Positions 51,153 to 64,000 of a DNA stretch of 64,000 bases are shown here, one piece after another (position 1 is the stretch's first letter; the number at the start of each line of letters is the position of its first letter). The translations under genes were made by a program, and so were the position numbers. This DNA is from Desulfoplanes formicivorans (lineage in GTDB: Bacteria > Desulfobacterota > Desulfovibrionia > Desulfovibrionales > Desulfomicrobiaceae). A model generated the notes under the pieces. That model was given only the letters and a program-made list of their open reading frames with translations, did not search any database and was not told where the DNA came from. The stretch is from NCBI RefSeq assembly GCF_001748225.1, contig NZ_BDFE01000017.1:372001-436000 (forward strand), written 5' to 3'.

Positions 51153-52535
51153 TCAAGCTGTTGACGGAGTTTCCCGACTATTAAAATCGTACAATTCCAG
51201 CTTGTCGTACAAAGTACGGCGGCTTATGCCAAGTACCCGGGCGGCTTTGGACCGGTTACCTGCAGCCTCTTTCAGGGCCTTACGGATGGCTGCTCTTTCG
51301 GCCTGTTCCACTGCTTCTTTAAGGGATGAGGAGGTATCGATTTCCGAGGCCACGGGTGGTGTGGAAGGTCTGACATAATGATATAACGAATCAACCGCGA
51401 TGACCGTATCATCGGTCAGGAGCACTGCCCGCTCAATAATATTTTCCAGTTCCCGGATATTTCCCTTCCAGGAAGAATTCATAAGCACCTGCATGGCTGC
51501 TGGATCCAATTCCGTAACTTTCTTATTATACATTTTGTTACATTTACGAATGAAATGGTCCACAAAAAAACCCAGGTCTTCCTTGCGTTCTCGCAACGCT
51601 GGCAGATGCAATGGGATGACGGCCAGACGATAATAAAGGTCTTTGCGAAAGCCGTTTTTTTCCACTTCTTCACTTAAATTACGACTGGTCGCGGAGATAA
51701 ATCGAACATCGATATGTATGGGAATGTTGCCCCCTACGGGTTTGATTTCTTTTTCCTGAATGGCTCGCAGGAGTTTGACCTGGGTTGAGGGGGTGAGTTC
51801 GCCGATTTCATCCAGAAATATAGTTCCGCCCTGAGCTTCTTCCAAAAGCCCTCGCTTGGCCCGAACCGCTCCGGTAAAAGCCCCTTTGACATGACCAAAG
51901 AGCTCGCTTTCCAAAAGGTGTTCGGACAATGCTCCACAGTCGATGGTAAAAAAAGGCTTGTCCTTGCGGGCACTGATCTTGTGAATATGCTTGGCAAACA
52001 TGGATTTCCCGGTCCCGGTTTCCCCTTGGATGAGAATAGATGCCTCTGAGTCTGCAACCTTTTTAATGGTGGAAAGCATTTGCTTGATAACGGGGTTGTT
52101 TCCCACGACCATACCGGCAGTGGCATTTTGCTTCTCGCGAGAATCGTAATCTTCCAGCCGGCGATGCAATTTACCATACTCAATGGCCCGCCCGGCCAAA
52201 AGTGCCAGTTCCTGGGTTTTGAAAGGTTTGGTAATGTAGGTGAAGGCCCCCATGCGCATGGCTTCCACTGCGCTTTCAATGCTGCCTGCACCGGTCATGA
52301 TGATGAAGGGCTGGTGGTGGTCTATACTGCGGATGCGCTGGAGCAATTCCAGACCGTCCACCGGCTGCATGGCCTGATCGCTTATGACCAGATCAAACAT
52401 GGTTTCAACAAGGGCATTCCAGCCTTCTTCTCCGTTTTCGGCAGTGTAAACTTTATAGCCCTGTCGTGTCAGAGATTTTTTCAGAACGGTCAGCAACTCT
52501 TTTTCATCGTCCACCAGAAGAATCTTATCGGGCAT
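51153..52535 (-). CDS. Sigma-54-dependent response regulator (NtrC family)
   Basis: A 460-residue activator. The receiver domain (1-120) has Asp9-Asp10, phospho-acceptor Asp53 (ISDQAMQP) and the Lys in TKPF. The AAA+ domain (about 142-380) has Walker A GETGTGKS (171-178), the sigma-54 loop GAFTGA (218-223) and Walker B TIFLDEIGEL. The Fis-type HTH is at the C-terminus (RSKAARVLGISRRTLYDKL). It follows the kinase gene by 17 bases and is the last gene of the leftward operon. Both operon promoters have -24/-12 type elements, its expected targets. Confidence 0.94.
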   Translation of the reverse strand: MPDKILLVDDEKELLTVLKKSLTRQGYKVYTAENGEEGWNALVETMFDLVISDQAMQPVDGLELLQRIRSIDHHQPFIIMTGAGSIESAVEAMRMGAFTYITKPFKTQELALLAGRAIEYGKLHRRLEDYDSREKQNATAGMVVGNNPVIKQMLSTIKKVADSEASILIQGETGTGKSMFAKHIHKISARKDKPFFTIDCGALSEHLLESELFGHVKGAFTGAVRAKRGLLEEAQGGTIFLDEIGELTPSTQVKLLRAIQEKEIKPVGGNIPIHIDVRFISATSRNLSEEVEKNGFRKDLYYRLAVIPLHLPALRERKEDLGFFVDHFIRKCNKMYNKKVTELDPAAMQVLMNSSWKGNIRELENIIERAVLLTDDTVIAVDSLYHYVRPSTPPVASEIDTSSSLKEAVEQAERAAIRKALKEAAGNRSKAARVLGISRRTLYDKLELYDFNSRETPSTA

Positions 52536-52552: not shown

Positions 52553-54523
52553 TTAAACAGCTGGAAATTCCAGGATTATCGAAGTTCCTCTGTCGGGTTC
52601 AGATTCCGCATAAATCAGGCCGTTATTCCGTTCCACCATCCGTCTGGTGATAAAAAGGCCCAATCCGAAACCGCCCTTGCGAGAAGTAAAAAACGGTTCA
52701 AAAATCTGGCGAAGATTTTCTCTGGCAATGCCTTTGCCCTGGTCCCGGACCACAATCTGGATAGTACTGTTTTCTCCGCTCCCGGTCTTGTCGGCACTCA
52801 GGGTTATTTCTTTGCCGGGGTCCATGTTTTCAATGGCATTAAAGAGCAGATTCATGAAGACTTGCTGCAGGGAACGGATATCACCGTAAATAAAGAGTGG
52901 GTCATCACTCACATTGATGCGGATGGTATCCTTTTTGGCTTTGGGGCCGACCAGCATGACGCTTTCCTCAAGCAAATCAAGGACATTGATTCTTTCTTTG
53001 CATTGCGCTTTGGGGGCCGCCTGAGCCAGAACTCCGCCGGTTATTTCCCCGGCTCGTTCAGCATTACGCAGAATGGCTGAAAGACCTTCCCGAAGATCTT
53101 CGGAAAGGTCGTCGGCATAAAGCAGTTCTTCGGCGTTCGCCTGAATAATACTCAGTGGATTATTTATTTCGTGGGCTACCGAGGCGGCCATCTTGCCGAT
53201 AATTGCCAGCCGTTCAGACTGGATGAGATCTTCTTCCATTTTGTTGCGTTCGCTCACATCGCGGGCAAAAAGACACCCCAGAGCTTCTGTCTGTTCTTCT
53301 TGAATGAGCTGCCCTGCAATCTCTGCCAACACCTTGTTTCCTGAAAGGCTTTGCAGAGTAAACTCGTGTTTGCCATAGCCTTCGCTGAAAACATGACACA
53401 GAAATGATGCCATTGCCGGCACCTCCCCTTGCACCAAGATCTGGTCCAACCGCAGATTATCATGACCTGCTGCAAGGGCTAACATGACACAGGCCTGTTT
53501 GTTGGCATGCAGAATACGACCTTCTTTATTGACCAGAAAAATCATGTCCGGTGAAGATTCAATCAGTACCCGATAACGTTGTTCCGTGCGCTGTAAATCT
53601 TTCGTTACCTTGGCCACTTTGCGGCGAAGAAGAAAACTCCAGGCCATGGCGAGCATAAGAAACGTTGCCAGCCCGACCAAGACGAAAAGCAGATGCCGGA
53701 TATACCGTCCCAACCGGAAGGTTTCTGTAATGGAACGACCAAACCATTTTTCACGGAGTTGTTCCAGTGATCCGTTTTTCTTCAGATCCTCCACTGCCTT
53801 TTCAAGTTTTTGGGTAAGATCAGGAGTGTTTGGTGGAACCATAATTCCTAAAGGTATCTCTTTGAGAGGCATACCTTTTTTCAAAACATTTTTGAATTCC
53901 TGGTCCGCAATAATATAATCTGCTTCCTTCTCCGAAGGCGCAATAAACACGTCCACAACACCTCTATTGAGCATATTCAAGGCTTCCAGACACGAAGGAA
54001 CGTTGATGGACTTGCGAAGACTACGCATAGAGGATTCATAATCGACCCCCTGCATGATAATGACCCGTTTGTTGTGCAGATCTTTCAGGCAGGTGACCGA
54101 GGTACACCCTTTATGGACATAGAGATGTTGTTTCAAACTGTAATTTACCGGGATAAATGTGTATCCCAGTTCATCAGCCAGCTTTTGCGTACCGTGGGAA
54201 ATAAAATGTATCTTGCCGTTTTTAAGCAGTTCTTTGCGTTTGTTCAGGTCAGGAATTTGGACAAATTTGATATCAGCCTGGATAATTTTTCCGATCATCA
54301 GCCATTCGTCAATGGTATATCCGCGGATGATTTGTTGGCCATCTTGTATGGACAGAAAAGAAAAGGGAGGGGAAATGGCCCGGACCCCGATGGTATAGGT
54401 TGGTCGGGACGAGGCATGTACCGGCGGCAAACCCGGCAGGAGAAGAATCAGAAGCAAAAAAACAGGAATGCGTGTGCAAAACATGGGTGCCTTGTACGGT
54501 TTATGCTTCTCTTTCGCCACCAT
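52553..54523 (-). CDS. Sensor histidine kinase with periplasmic solute-binding domain
   Basis: A 656-residue hybrid of binding protein and kinase. It has a signal/anchor (17-38), an extracytoplasmic family-3 solute-binding domain (about 40-262), one membrane helix (277-299), a PAS domain (310-420), HisKA with phospho-acceptor His451 in SVAHEINNPL, and an HATPase domain with NLLFNAIEN, DQGKGIA and GGFGLGLF. It should sense a small periplasmic ligand and phosphorylate the adjacent NtrC-type regulator. Two Cys (140 and 145) lie in the sensor domain. The start may be Met14. Confidence 0.92.
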   Translation of the reverse strand: MVAKEKHKPYKAPMFCTRIPVFLLLILLLPGLPPVHASSRPTYTIGVRAISPPFSFLSIQDGQQIIRGYTIDEWLMIGKIIQADIKFVQIPDLNKRKELLKNGKIHFISHGTQKLADELGYTFIPVNYSLKQHLYVHKGCTSVTCLKDLHNKRVIIMQGVDYESSMRSLRKSINVPSCLEALNMLNRGVVDVFIAPSEKEADYIIADQEFKNVLKKGMPLKEIPLGIMVPPNTPDLTQKLEKAVEDLKKNGSLEQLREKWFGRSITETFRLGRYIRHLLFVLVGLATFLMLAMAWSFLLRRKVAKVTKDLQRTEQRYRVLIESSPDMIFLVNKEGRILHANKQACVMLALAAGHDNLRLDQILVQGEVPAMASFLCHVFSEGYGKHEFTLQSLSGNKVLAEIAGQLIQEEQTEALGCLFARDVSERNKMEEDLIQSERLAIIGKMAASVAHEINNPLSIIQANAEELLYADDLSEDLREGLSAILRNAERAGEITGGVLAQAAPKAQCKERINVLDLLEESVMLVGPKAKKDTIRINVSDDPLFIYGDIRSLQQVFMNLLFNAIENMDPGKEITLSADKTGSGENSTIQIVVRDQGKGIARENLRQIFEPFFTSRKGGFGLGLFITRRMVERNNGLIYAESEPDRGTSIILEFPAV

Positions 54524-54619: not shown

Positions 54620-55312
54620 TTACTTGGCTGTTCCGGAAAGAACAACCTTGTACCCCTTGCCGATGTCATTGCGCGCATCCGAATATACGAGAAGGATGTC
54701 AAGGAATCTTCCGGATCGGACCGGGCGTACGCCAAAGGTTACAGGGAGGCTCCTTCCGGCCGGAATAACCAGTTCGCCCGTGAAGTAGGTGCTCTTGAAC
54801 TTCATGGAGGTAATGGAAGTGACGGTCAGAGGGGCGTCGCCGGTATTTTTGATCATGATCTGCACCTGATTTTGCCTGTCAGGCGTGAGTTCGCCCACGT
54901 CGACCTTCCGGGGGCTGACCTCGATTACACCCATGGGAATGGCTTCTACAAAGCCCGTGATATGAATAATATGGGCATCTTCCTTGCTGTCTCCGGTAAA
55001 AACCGTCACTGTTTTATCAAATTTTCCCGCATACTTGAACGTTCTATAGGTGATAACTAATGTGGTTTTCTCATCGGGTTGCAAACGACGCTTTCCAAGC
55101 GTCGTTGTCGTGCAGCTTCAGGAAGTAGTAACGTTGGTGATGGTCACCGGTTCGCTGCCGATGTTGGACAGAATCACTTTTTTTTGGGCGGTCGGACCTT
55201 CGCGCAGTGTTCCGAAATCTATGGTTTTCGTACTGAACCCCAGGCCGCCGGCAAAGGCAGGAAGGGTCAGGCTGCAAAAGAGCATGGCCAATGCGAATAT
55301 CTTTTTAACCAT
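54620..55312 (-). CDS. DUF1573 protein with predicted selenocysteine (in-frame TGA)
   Basis: A secreted 230-residue protein read through a TGA at codon 65 (55120-55118). The signal peptide is residues 1-21 (ending AFA). The DUF1573 domain follows: IDFGTLREG, an N-x-GSEPVTITNV strand, then TTS-U-SCT, and KFDKTVTVFTGD. In ordinary members this site reads TSCGCT, so U replaces the first conserved Cys. A hairpin typical of bacterial SECIS starts 12 bases after the TGA. The frame is open on both sides and family homology continues across. A second Ig-like module (about 125-230) completes the protein. It lies between a cytochrome gene and the kinase gene. Confidence 0.85.
55085..55105 (-). promoter_or_regulatory. 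Bacterial SECIS element
   Basis: On the minus strand, ACGACGCTT-GGA-AAGCGTCGT forms a perfect 9-bp stem with a GGA loop. The loop starts 21 bases after the TGA; known bacterial SECIS loops stand roughly 16-37 bases after it and have a G among the first two loop bases. Both conditions are met. Confidence 0.82.
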
Positions 55313-55323
55313 ATGTTTTTTCC

Positions 55324-55794
55324 TTATTTTTCAATACAACGTTCACCATGCACGAATTTTGACTTGATAGCATAGTTGAAGTTTTTGTCTTGCCCCGGGG
55401 TGTGACAGGTTCGACACGAAGCTTCATCAGGATGTCTGATGATATCTCCCGGATCTTCACTTTCAACATGTCTGGCTCCGGGGCCGTGACAGCTTTCACA
55501 CTGCACATTAATAAGTTCCGGTGTCAGATCCATATCGATGAAACCGCCCTCTGCCTCCATGGCCACCACATGACATTTTACGCAACCGGGCGTGGTTTGT
55601 TTTTCTTCTCCCTGTTCTGCCAGATCGGCAAAAGCACGGGCATGGGGGGTCGTCATCCAGCCATGAACCTTGGCTTCATGGCAGTCCGCACACGCCTTAA
55701 CTCCGACATATTCCCCAAAAAACTCTGCCTGGGCAAAGGAAACAATGCATACGTTGACGACCACGGCACACAAAAGAACGTATAGGCGATTCAT
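55324..55794 (-). CDS. Tetraheme c-type cytochrome (cytochrome c554-like)
   Basis: A 156-residue periplasmic protein with a signal peptide (residues 1-23, ending AQA). Four heme sites are visible: CADCH, CVKCH, CESCH (within QCESCHGPGARHVE) and CRTCH. The CESCHGPG and the spacing match the cytochrome c554/multiheme family. It likely moves electrons in the periplasm. It is 11 bases upstream (in transcript order) of the DUF1573 gene, so the two are surely co-expressed. Confidence 0.92.
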   Translation of the reverse strand: MNRLYVLLCAVVVNVCIVSFAQAEFFGEYVGVKACADCHEAKVHGWMTTPHARAFADLAEQGEEKQTTPGCVKCHVVAMEAEGGFIDMDLTPELINVQCESCHGPGARHVESEDPGDIIRHPDEASCRTCHTPGQDKNFNYAIKSKFVHGERCIEK

Positions 55795-55814: not shown

Positions 55815-56111
55815 CTAACAGTTACAGCTGGAAGCGGCTTCCAGATACAGATGCTTTTTGAGCTTTCGCAGCTTGCTGTTGTCGATGCCATCCACGTCCA
55901 GCAGTTCATCCATGTCCACGAATTCCCCATTTTCAGAACGGGCATCAATAATTTTTTGGGCCAGTTCCTGACCAACCCCCGGGACCTCGGCAAGCTGCTC
56001 CACCGTGATTGTGTTGAGGTTTTGCTTGCCGTCGTGATCCCCGGCAAAGCCTGGGACAGCTGCCAAGAGCAGAACTGCGAACAGTGGCAGGATTACCATG
56101 ATTTGTTTCAT
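55815..56111 (-). CDS. Secreted helix-hairpin-helix protein, C-terminal Cys-Asn-Cys
   Basis: A 98-residue protein with a signal peptide (1-23, ending GFA) and a ComEA-type HhH module: LNTITVEQLAEVPGVGQELAQKI, then DMDELLDVDGIDNSKLRKLK (quoted in part). It ends SSCNC. HhH modules usually bind DNA, but this one is alone and exported; a protein- or metal-binding role is equally possible. A second protein of the same design lies in the divergent operon (62664-62993). Confidence 0.85.
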   Translation of the reverse strand: MKQIMVILPLFAVLLLAAVPGFAGDHDGKQNLNTITVEQLAEVPGVGQELAQKIIDARSENGEFVDMDELLDVDGIDNSKLRKLKKHLYLEAASSCNC

Positions 56112-56520: not shown

Positions 56521-57681
56521 TTAGGCCGGAAGCAATCCGGTTTGAACACAAATGAGAATGACAGCGAGCAGCAGGGCCATGCGCACAAACCCAGCAATGC
56601 AGGTCACGGCAAAACATCGAAGACCATTTTGAGCGATGTCCCGTAACGGCAGGCTCAACCCCAGGGCTGCGGCGGCCATGGAAAAATCCCATTGCACCAT
56701 ATTGAAAATGGCGTGGGCAGCCGGCTGCCTGAACACGTGCAGGCACGCCAGGACCCAACAAAAAATGAATACCATAAGCCAGACGGGAAAGGTTTTCATA
56801 TCCCCGGTGGAATAGATGATATTATTTCCCTTGTTTCTGAGCTTGCGGATGAACATGACCACAAAGACATAGATGAAACCTGCAGGCATGATCACATGAC
56901 GACCCACGTCAAACCATGTGGCATATCGTCCCGCCTCATAGCTCATGCTGAAGGCTGCAAAAAGCCCCTGTGCACCATTGCCCACCGTGGTAACTGCGGC
57001 CAGACCGAAATATTTGTCCGGAATGCCAACGAGTGGACCGACCAGTGGGAGAACCAGCATGGCAATAATTCCAAAGAGGATCACACAGGCCGAAGCCCCA
57101 ATGACCTGCCCGCCTTTGGCCTTGATCAACGGCATGAGAATGACCCCTGCATGAGGGTCTCCTGTTGCAAGACCGCCTGCAACAATGGATGTTTGCCGGT
57201 CATCGAGTTTCAGCAGTTTGCCGGTGTACAACGTAATCGTGGCCGTGACGAACAGGGCGGCTACACAGATCAGAATGGGGATGAAACCCAGTTTGGCCGC
57301 ATGTCCGAACATGAAATGCGGGGCCAGCATGATAATGCCCAGGGGCATCATCAGGTGGATATAGGAAAGGCCTCGTTTCCAGGCGTCGGGAACTCCAAAG
57401 ACGTTGCCGATAACCAACCCCATCAAAAAGGGGTTCCAGACAAAGTTGGAGTTCATAATCTGAAAGAAGGACTGGTGGTGCAGGGGCCCGATGACCCCGT
57501 CCAGCCAGGCAAAAAGATTTTGCAGGGTGAAAGGGTTGGGAACCCCGACCAGGTTATTGCTGAAAATGGCTATAAAGAACATGGCCAGCAGTCCGGGCAG
57601 CACAGTTTTCAGACTGTACAGGGCACTGAAAAAAGAACTTCTGTTTATTTCGTACGTGGCGGTTGATAGTGTATTCATCAT
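56521..57681 (-). CDS. YeiH/UPF0324-type membrane transporter
   Basis: A 386-residue protein with about ten membrane helices. Its C-terminal half follows the YeiH pattern: MPLIKAKGGQVIGASACVILFG, PLVGPLVGIPDKYFGL, and the second re-entrant region with AAFSMSYEAGRYATWFDVGRH (quoted in part). YeiH proteins are called putative sulfate exporters by database tradition, with little experimental support. It differs from YeiH by a longer N-terminus. Its place in an operon beside sulfotransferase genes is suggestive. Confidence 0.72.
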   Translation of the reverse strand: MMNTLSTATYEINRSSFFSALYSLKTVLPGLLAMFFIAIFSNNLVGVPNPFTLQNLFAWLDGVIGPLHHQSFFQIMNSNFVWNPFLMGLVIGNVFGVPDAWKRGLSYIHLMMPLGIIMLAPHFMFGHAAKLGFIPILICVAALFVTATITLYTGKLLKLDDRQTSIVAGGLATGDPHAGVILMPLIKAKGGQVIGASACVILFGIIAMLVLPLVGPLVGIPDKYFGLAAVTTVGNGAQGLFAAFSMSYEAGRYATWFDVGRHVIMPAGFIYVFVVMFIRKLRNKGNNIIYSTGDMKTFPVWLMVFIFCWVLACLHVFRQPAAHAIFNMVQWDFSMAAAALGLSLPLRDIAQNGLRCFAVTCIAGFVRMALLLAVILICVQTGLLPA

Positions 57682-57693
57682 TTGAGTCCTTTG

Positions 57694-60603
57694 TTATCTG
57701 CGGATATGGGCGGAACCGCCTGTATTAACTGCACCACTGATGGTTGTAGCCGGGGCAGCATGTCCGGTTCTCCAGGCATCTCTGAACGCCAGCCTGGGAA
57801 GCATGGACAGACGGAGAAAGCCTTCGATCGTTCCGTTGATGCCCAAGAGCACGTCCACATTATTCCGAGGTCTAAACGCCAAGTTGCCGGTGGTACACAC
57901 CCTGCCCCGGTGATGGCCTTCGATGTGCCAGGCCATGATCATTTCGCCATCAAAACTGTCGATGACAATTTTGAACAACGGTTGACCGTCAGCATCTTTG
58001 GGGCCTTCGTAGGTGGGATGATCCTTGTCCAGAACGATCTGCTGGGGGTTGTCCAGCAACAGTTCGTTAAACTGATAGCAATGGCCACAGACATCCGGAC
58101 GGACCATAAAACGCGGATCATGCTTATAGGGGGTATCACGCTTCATATCTTCGATGCCGGTATACGTGTAGAGCTGGGCTTTGCCCTGCTTGAAAGGCTT
58201 TTTCACATCCATTTCCACCATGACAGGACCCAGGCGCAGCTGCATCTTTCGGGCAGTTTCCATATGCTGAGGCAACAGGGAGTTTGTCACGGTATTAAGC
58301 GGACCTAGCACCTTGCTGGCCAGGACGGTTCCCGAGGCATCGATAATTTCCACCCCCACGGTTCCGCATTGTTCATCCACACTGGTGCAGCGCAGGATCT
58401 TGTCACCGAGCGGCACCGTGTCACCGCTTTGCAGAAGCTCGCTTTTGGGTTTGCTTAAGGTGTAACTAATGGCATTGATGGACGGAGTGGCGAATTCCTT
58501 GATCCGTACATAATTGGAACCCACATATTCAGGCACAATAAAGGTGGCACCTTCGGCAAACACCTCGGGCATGTAATACCGATTGCCCGGATCGTTCTGA
58601 TCAAACCCCTGGGCAATGAAGAAATGGGAACCCCAGCGGTTGCCTGAATATTTCATCAGGCTCAAGGAACCGACCGGACGGTCATCAAGATAGGTCATAC
58701 CGGTATAACGCAGGGCCTTGTTGCGTACGCCCAAAAGCTGATCCTGCCAGTACATGAGATTCCCGTCTCCCATGGGTTGGTTTTTCCAAAAATCCAGATT
58801 GAGATTCTTGAGGACATAGGTACCGGACGTGAAGGTAGTCAGATACGCTTTTTTGCCGAGCATGAAAAAGGGTTCAGCCGCAAGAGTACGTATGTTCCGG
58901 GCGTTTCTGGTTGTATAGCACAAGCCTGCTGGAGGGATAACAATGCGACCGTTTTTGTAGTCGACATAGCTCCCCCGGATAAACACGGCCTCGGCCGAAA
59001 GGAGCTTTTCATGGTTGCGGTTGCGAAAAATTTTCCGCTTCAGCCCCTTAAATCGAGCTACCAGCGGAGCGGTGTGGTCTGGTTCGTAGAATTCACTGCT
59101 GGAAACTACCTTGGGATAGGAAGAAAAGCGTGATTCTTCGATGATGGCCCCCAGAGATGAATCAGCCAACCGTTGCAGAAAGCTGCTTTCAATAATGGGT
59201 TCCAGCACAGGGGAAGAACCCAGAAAAAAATCCAGGTTTTCTTTGCCTTCGCTGGGCCACATGACCATGTTATCGGTCCGCATACCATAATAATCCCGCA
59301 CATAAAGGGTATGCACTGTTTTGGGCCCAAAATCTTTGGCCACGACTTTGAAAGCCGGACGGTTCCAGATTTCCGAATATTTTGTCGGGCCGTCATAGGA
59401 TGCATTGGCAGCATCAAGGGTAATGGTTTCATTGTTTTCCAGGAGCAGACGTTGAAGCATACCGGTTTTGGGGTTGGCTTCCAAAACCACGTTGTACCGT
59501 TTGTCCAGGGGCCAAGGCTGATTGTTTTCTACGGAGATCAAATTCCGGTAGATGACAAAAGACAGGTGCCCGCTGCCAAAACCATGAGCCTTATGCGTGG
59601 CCCACGGGGTAAAGTCGGAATTTTTAAGAAAGGTCGGATCAATAACAAGTTCCACTCGCATGTCTTCTTCGGGTACATTGAGGACATACCTGTCTTTTGC
59701 ATCGTTCCGATTTTTATAATTCTGAGCAGTGGCCGGCTGTATCAGCTTTTCTGCCAGGACCTTGCTGCCGGTAAAGTTGGTGACCTTGACCAAAAATCCA
59801 TTGGGCTGGCGATAGGCGTAGATACGTTTATCCATGTACAACCGGTAGTCTTCCTGGCGGACCTCCAGAGTCACTGGCCGTTCCAGGGCAAAAGTGGCCC
59901 TGGTGACTACGGGGAACTCAATGGAACTGAATGTGGCTGTATCGAACTCTATGTCTTTGGCTACGTACTTGCTCGCCCCGAGATAGTAGGTCTTGTCCAT
60001 ATAAAACTGGAGCAATTGTGATGTCATGCCTTCTTTGAGGTCCAGAGTGCGGGTGTCTTCACGCCCACTGAATTTTGAGGCAATGGGGAACTCCAGCGGC
60101 CAGCCCCCGGAAGGAGAAATGACGGCAAATTCGCCATAGGGCTTTTGGTAATGATCTGTGGAGTAATCGAACCAGAGACGGTACCCTGTTGTACCAAAAG
60201 GTTTCCGTTCTCCTTTGGTAATGGAAACATCGTTAAAAATTTTTTTCTCTGTGCTCAGATCCACCAGATACGCATGTTCGCCCAGAAGCAGAAAAGGGTC
60301 GCGCATGAGAGGTCTGGCATCTCCGGAAGTTTCGGAGATATAAAACAGTCCCCCGGGAAGGACTTTTGCCTGACCATTTTTGATGGTGCTTTGGCGCAGC
60401 ACAATGGCCTCGGAGAGGTGTTTGCTCTGCCCGTCTCTGTTTTTGAAAACCTTATTCCGTAAACCGGCTAAATGCGGCAGAAAGGTCATGTCATTTGCTG
60501 GCGAAAGTCCATGCGGGTCAGTTCCCGCACAGGTCCCGCTCTGCGTAAAGCCCATGACAAAGATCAGGGCCAGAACCAAGACTATTGATGTGTTTTTTTT
60601 CAT
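57694..60603 (-). CDS. Large secreted protein of two diverged homologous halves
   Basis: A 969-residue protein with a signal peptide (residues 1-26). I know no family for it. The two halves (about 43-490 and 512-950) are related. Near their starts, LAGLRNKVFKNRDGQ matches FKGLKRKIFRNRNHE, and RDPFLLLGEHAYL matches AEPFFMLGKKAYL. Near their ends, LLLENNETITLDAANASYDGP matches LLLDNPQQIVLDKDHPTYEGP. The second half adds Cys739, Cys746 and a CGHC site (839-842). It is rich in beta-strand patterns. It is the first gene of the leftward operon and, by size, could be a surface or periplasmic scaffold. Confidence 0.85.
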   Translation of the reverse strand: MKKNTSIVLVLALIFVMGFTQSGTCAGTDPHGLSPANDMTFLPHLAGLRNKVFKNRDGQSKHLSEAIVLRQSTIKNGQAKVLPGGLFYISETSGDARPLMRDPFLLLGEHAYLVDLSTEKKIFNDVSITKGERKPFGTTGYRLWFDYSTDHYQKPYGEFAVISPSGGWPLEFPIASKFSGREDTRTLDLKEGMTSQLLQFYMDKTYYLGASKYVAKDIEFDTATFSSIEFPVVTRATFALERPVTLEVRQEDYRLYMDKRIYAYRQPNGFLVKVTNFTGSKVLAEKLIQPATAQNYKNRNDAKDRYVLNVPEEDMRVELVIDPTFLKNSDFTPWATHKAHGFGSGHLSFVIYRNLISVENNQPWPLDKRYNVVLEANPKTGMLQRLLLENNETITLDAANASYDGPTKYSEIWNRPAFKVVAKDFGPKTVHTLYVRDYYGMRTDNMVMWPSEGKENLDFFLGSSPVLEPIIESSFLQRLADSSLGAIIEESRFSSYPKVVSSSEFYEPDHTAPLVARFKGLKRKIFRNRNHEKLLSAEAVFIRGSYVDYKNGRIVIPPAGLCYTTRNARNIRTLAAEPFFMLGKKAYLTTFTSGTYVLKNLNLDFWKNQPMGDGNLMYWQDQLLGVRNKALRYTGMTYLDDRPVGSLSLMKYSGNRWGSHFFIAQGFDQNDPGNRYYMPEVFAEGATFIVPEYVGSNYVRIKEFATPSINAISYTLSKPKSELLQSGDTVPLGDKILRCTSVDEQCGTVGVEIIDASGTVLASKVLGPLNTVTNSLLPQHMETARKMQLRLGPVMVEMDVKKPFKQGKAQLYTYTGIEDMKRDTPYKHDPRFMVRPDVCGHCYQFNELLLDNPQQIVLDKDHPTYEGPKDADGQPLFKIVIDSFDGEMIMAWHIEGHHRGRVCTTGNLAFRPRNNVDVLLGINGTIEGFLRLSMLPRLAFRDAWRTGHAAPATTISGAVNTGGSAHIRR

Positions 60604-63645: not shown

Positions 63646-64000
63646 ATGAAATTAAAACAGGTATTGGCCACAACAGCAGCTGCTGCGATTTTTTCTGTAG
63701 GCTGTGCTGTTTCCGCATGGGCATTTCCTTCTGTCTTTCCCACAGGAACGACTATTTATAATCCTTCAAAGGCATATAACAGCTATGTTCTGGTCCCGCA
63801 GGATGATAAACTCTATAATAGCCGTGACGCCAAACATCGTGATATGCGAGCCAAAAAAGGGACAAAGTCCATCAAGAGTTCAGGAACGGCTTCAGGTTCC
63901 GTGAGCAATATGGCTACTTCGGTCAAACTGATTGATATGAATGGCAATGTCATGCACACATGGTCCGTCAAACCTACCCCCAACCGTCGAGATGTCCTGC
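63646..64000 (+). CDS. Second arylsulfate sulfotransferase (3' end cut by window)
   Basis: The first 118 codons of another ASST. It has a Sec-type signal (KLKQVLATTAAAAIFSVGC..., cleaved near AWA), then FPSVFPTGTTIYNPSKAYNSYVLV and LIDMNGNVMHTW, clearly paralogous to the first enzyme. An extra basic insert (about residues 55-85: RDAKHRDMRAKKGTKSIKSS) separates the two motifs. Unlike the first copy the signal has no twin arginine. AAAGGAG precedes the ATG. The catalytic part lies beyond the window. Confidence 0.88.
   Translation, partial: MKLKQVLATTAAAAIFSVGCAVSAWAFPSVFPTGTTIYNPSKAYNSYVLVPQDDKLYNSRDAKHRDMRAKKGTKSIKSSGTASGSVSNMATSVKLIDMNGNVMHTWSVKPTPNRRDVL

Follow-up and report, generated by a model that had tools for sequence, protein, structure and literature searches.

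A probable divergent DUF1573 selenoprotein encoded next to a tetraheme cytochrome gene in Desulfoplanes formicivorans

A DUF1573 gene with an in-frame TGA, carried on the minus strand of the 64,000-nucleotide stretch of Desulfoplanes formicivorans DNA analysed here (the window), very probably encodes a selenoprotein that is exported to the periplasm and has selenocysteine (Sec) at residue 65. Judging from sequence comparison, the gene represents a divergent branch of a selenoprotein family known since 2007-2008. It adds to a family already listed in reviews a branch with several Sec/Cys exchanges open to comparison, and it is a gene that ordinary annotation would truncate or split in two. The reading as Sec was decided by comparison with relatives, in which the TGA is kept within the genus, the corresponding alignment column contains only Sec or Cys, and a downstream hairpin shows compensatory changes.

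A reading frame across TGA and its homologues

Read along the minus strand from 55312 down to 54620, the gene starts at an ATG preceded by a Shine-Dalgarno-like AAGGA (read directly from the sequence) and comprises 64 sense codons, the TGA at 55118..55120, 165 further codons and a TAA stop. The predicted product has a signal-peptide-like start followed by two PapD/ASH-like Ig domains. Conceptual translation places U65 in the context NVTTS-U-SCTTTTLGKR, with Cys67, its partner in a U-x-C pair, encoded at 55112..55114 on the same strand. Thus, the two in-frame segments parted by a single TGA that a first-pass annotation of this DNA had described form one frame of 230 residues. Its claim that DUF1573 homology runs through the TGA also held, as the PF07610 match covers residues 26-122 and crosses that codon (E 4.7e-27), with a score of 94.3 bits that lies above the gathering score of 26.1.

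In the source genome, selB (409.7 bits), selA (617 bits), selD (333 bits) and tRNA-Sec (82.4 bits) were all detected above curated cut-offs. A same-genus orthologue (73% identity) has TGA at the identical codon and an otherwise intact frame. Between these two genus members amino-acid identity is 69% before the TGA and 76% after it, and third-position changes dominate on both sides, which argues that the part downstream of the TGA is under selection as protein. We then collected and aligned 78 DUF1573 genes from Desulfobacterota: in the TGA column 36 of them have Sec and the remaining 42 all have Cys, in agreement with the earlier placement of the TGA at the family's conserved Cys. TGA is also kept in the homologues from G106, OB3 and G374, with Cys instead in L026-L028. 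In alignment A1 the invariant columns are N50, C65 and P79, and the nearly invariant ones G39, G52, C67 and G80. A quick tree required 8 Sec/Cys changes, or at least 6 when only well supported branches were counted, both values being approximate as they come from a short search. As a separate observation, selD of the source genome (G000:C17:78963-79883) is likewise crossed by a single in-frame TGA, as would fit a Sec-type SelD.

A lone TGA replacing a Cys codon is also what one base error would be expected to leave behind, either as a plain nonsense mutation in a pseudogene or as a miscalled TGC or TGT. However, the identical TGA recurs in the independent same-genus genome and, in the Cys column, in many homologues of the phylum; the hairpin covaries, and the codons beyond the TGA are under selection. 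The independent orthologues rule out a pseudogene or base error as the cause of the TGA, and we regard this explanation as vanishingly improbable. The first-pass annotation, which had proposed Sec insertion at a conserved Cys with a SECIS element, had itself named three findings that would speak against it: a genome lacking selB or tRNA-Sec, relatives with the frame disrupted elsewhere, and unrelated residues replacing the TGA. All three failed to appear, with selB and tRNA-Sec both present, the same-genus relative intact and Cys the sole alternative to Sec, and its proposal is strongly supported.

The hairpin downstream of the TGA

A bacterial SECIS-like hairpin (AACGACGCTT-GGA-AAGCGTCGTT) lies at 55084..55106 on the minus strand, its loop starting 22 nt after the TGA, with a G in the apical loop as in bacterial SECIS elements. 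The hairpin, the GGA loop and the suitable distance are as previously described, except that the stem, given as a perfect 9 bp, is 10 bp long. Folding gave z = -2.9, and 1 of 200 shuffles folded as well. Taken by itself, the hairpin was ruled out as proof of Sec: 19 of the 2344 TGAs in the window (about 1 in 120) have a stem of at least 10 bp at SECIS distance. Among those listed of the 19, only this TGA has 70 open codons before it and more than 100 after it.

Stronger evidence came from comparing the window gene with four other Sec members of its branch, where in 7 of the 10 hairpin pairs both partners have changed in a compensatory way. Covariation scored 0.54, versus 0.18 in shuffles (none of 500 as good), and slid-partner controls ranged from 0.04 to 0.16. 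Between the two genus members one pair changes from G-C to T-A, the pairing being kept although the encoded residue changes from R to S. The Cys orthologues L026 and L028, which adjoin the same cytochrome gene, can form only 4 and 3 of the 10 pairs, respectively. Across the whole homologue set, a significant hairpin at SECIS distance was present in 69% of Sec genes versus 5% of Cys genes, with some Sec members having none recognisable under the simple hairpin rule used. We propose that the UGA would be decoded as Sec65 by SelB and tRNA-Sec, aided by this hairpin just downstream.

Position within the known DUF1573 selenoproteins

The suggestion in the first-pass annotation of a probable new selenoprotein family did not survive a look at the literature. 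OS_HP2 was tabulated as a selenoprotein in 2008, with pfam07610 and the motif UxC (PMC2398784). A 2022 review lists DUF1573 (pfam07610, motif UGC) and credits it to the Olavius symbiont study of Zhang and Gladyshev in 2007 (PMC9312934), and a 2026 paper likewise has DUF1573 as a selenoprotein with UGC (PMC13188914). The family also has an NCBIfam model, NF041425, named 'OS_HP2 family (seleno)protein', which all 32 proteins of an alignment match with E values no higher than 0.001. Entered with C substituted for U, the window protein scores 58.7 bits against this model, below its cut-off of 100 bits. By this measure the protein falls outside the NCBI subfamily as curated and is assigned to the wider DUF1573 selenoprotein family, of which the low score marks it as a divergent branch.

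The same shortfall could be taken to indicate a genuinely new family, as could the identity of about 20-27% to other Sec-containing DUF1573 branches and the possession of an operon of its own. Yet the Pfam domain, the Sec column and the UxC motif, to which U-S-C of the window protein conforms, all match the published OS_HP2/DUF1573 family (PF07610, NF041425), as does the existence of Cys-containing homologues, and we consider a new family highly improbable. What sets the window branch apart from OS_HP2/DUF1573, besides its score, is U-S/A-C in place of U-G-C and its location in a cytochrome- and arylsulfotransferase-linked operon.

A further Sec-DUF1573 branch (L059, L062, L066, L072, L079, L082 and L083) deviates from the published UxC motif: its site reads P-C-U-G-V/A, with the Cys adjoining Sec and without U-x-C. 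In this branch strong hairpins lie about 19 nt past the TGA, and a downstream gene is MurJ-like.

Operon, predicted structure and possible function

Directly upstream of the DUF1573 gene, and likewise on the minus strand, lies a gene for a secreted, tetraheme c554-like cytochrome with four CXXCH motifs (55324..55794), preceded by genes for a secreted ComEA-like helix-hairpin-helix protein (55815..56111), a PF03601/YeiH-like membrane protein (56521..57681) and a secreted 969-aa protein (57694..60603) that had no match in Pfam or NCBIfam. Downstream on the same strand are genes for a sensor kinase with SBP_bac_3, PAS and HisKA domains (52553..54523) and for an NtrC-type sigma-54 response regulator (51153..52535). 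An arylsulfotransferase-like gene with a Tat signal (PF05935; 61210..62652, plus strand) is divergent from this operon. Also divergent from it, positions 63646-63999 hold the start of a second protein whose N-terminal sequence is similar to that of the arylsulfotransferase-like protein.

The cytochrome gene is directly upstream of DUF1573 in all seven window-branch loci with upstream DNA (the window, L010, L026, L028, L029, L030 and L031), Sec and Cys forms alike. Several loci of the branch also share the 969-aa protein, the PF03601 membrane protein, the ComEA-like protein, the conserved downstream sensor kinase and the NtrC-type regulator; several Desulfobacterota retain the gene for the 969-aa protein in this operon. 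Genes with N-terminal sequence similar to the arylsulfotransferase-like gene occur in L029 and L099. The cytochrome neighbour was not found in other DUF1573 branches, whose loci sit by varied genes; no family-wide link of Sec-DUF1573 to one neighbour was found, so that the cytochrome link holds for the window branch only. Our literature search on arylsulfotransferases with cytochromes in Desulfovibrio returned nothing useful, and we found no description of an arylsulfotransferase-tied operon with a tetraheme cytochrome and DUF1573. The pairing of cytochrome and DUF1573, within a conserved operon that lies close to an arylsulfotransferase gene, seems to be new, if modestly so.

An AlphaFold2 (AF2) model of the window protein, with U entered as C, had a mean pLDDT of 92.6 and displayed two PapD/ASH-like beta-sandwich domains, in the first of which strands 56-63 and 68-72 flank residues 65 and 67. 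The predicted fold is similar to HYDIN/CEP192 ASH and PapD-like domains (PDB 7ptb, 2ys4, 2e6j; Z about 12-13), and matches in a PDB sequence search were all weak (best E 0.007). With these domains the similarity is one of fold only, their biology being different. To our knowledge, no Sec/Cys site occurs in these ASH and PapD-like domains.

A U-x-C pair on a loop of an exported protein, together with the adjoining tetraheme cytochrome, suggests a redox site of the selenenylsulfide type that exchanges electrons with heme. Sec65 and Cys67, predicted to lie in a loop that joins two strands within the first PapD/ASH-like domain, would form a reversible selenenylsulfide and trade electrons with the neighbouring cytochrome in the periplasm. 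The pair would work within the arylsulfotransferase-linked operon, whose probable regulator is its own two-component system. On the strength of gene context and motif, we give this mechanism about an even chance.

The closely spaced Cys and Sec ligands could also belong to a selenoprotein in which U65 and C67 form a metal or metalloid site and no redox pair; about 20% of selenoprotein families have a predicted binding capacity, mostly for metals (PMC13188914). Beyond the residues listed above, however, alignment A1 has no other conserved Cys or His that could act as a ligand, and the cytochrome context points towards electron transfer, so that we hold a metal site to be unlikely. Slightly less likely still, the selenoprotein may serve the cytochrome or the 969-aa protein as a periplasmic chaperone of the PapD type or as an assembly factor, its Sec/Cys pair being the thiol handle by which it holds the apo-protein. 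The PapD/ASH-like fold and the adjoining multiheme cytochrome gene would suit such a role, but this fold is common to many non-chaperones, CEP192 and HYDIN among them.

Returning to electron exchange with heme, relatives of the cytochrome in other loci often occur as fusions with UshA-like proteins that have PCGU or PCGC. The UshA-like (seleno)protein NF041198 (PCGU) carries at its C-terminus a cytochrome domain homologous to the product of the window's neighbour gene (117 bits) and combines Sec/Cys and heme motifs in one protein, although this is a UshA-type protein and not a DUF1573 Ig-like one. In L089, L093 and L098, a Cys-type DUF1573 domain and CXXCH cytochrome c motifs are encoded in a single frame. 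We tentatively suggest, at somewhat less than even confidence, that the Ig/PapD-fold U-x-C protein of the window branch may be a dedicated selenol redox partner of the tetraheme cytochrome in an arylsulfotransferase-tied operon, and that the UshA-like (PCGU) fusions of the cytochrome domain may reflect a recurrent periplasmic heme-selenol electron-transfer unit in Desulfobacterota. The conserved cytochrome neighbour offers a concrete hint of the electron partner and makes the function of the DUF1573 family testable.

At one further locus (L031/L100, G374:C77), a distant member of the branch is followed by a frame with U-GSC, apparently the known UGSC selenoprotein. Two selenoprotein genes and a tetraheme cytochrome gene thus occur together there, near a rhodanese-like gene.
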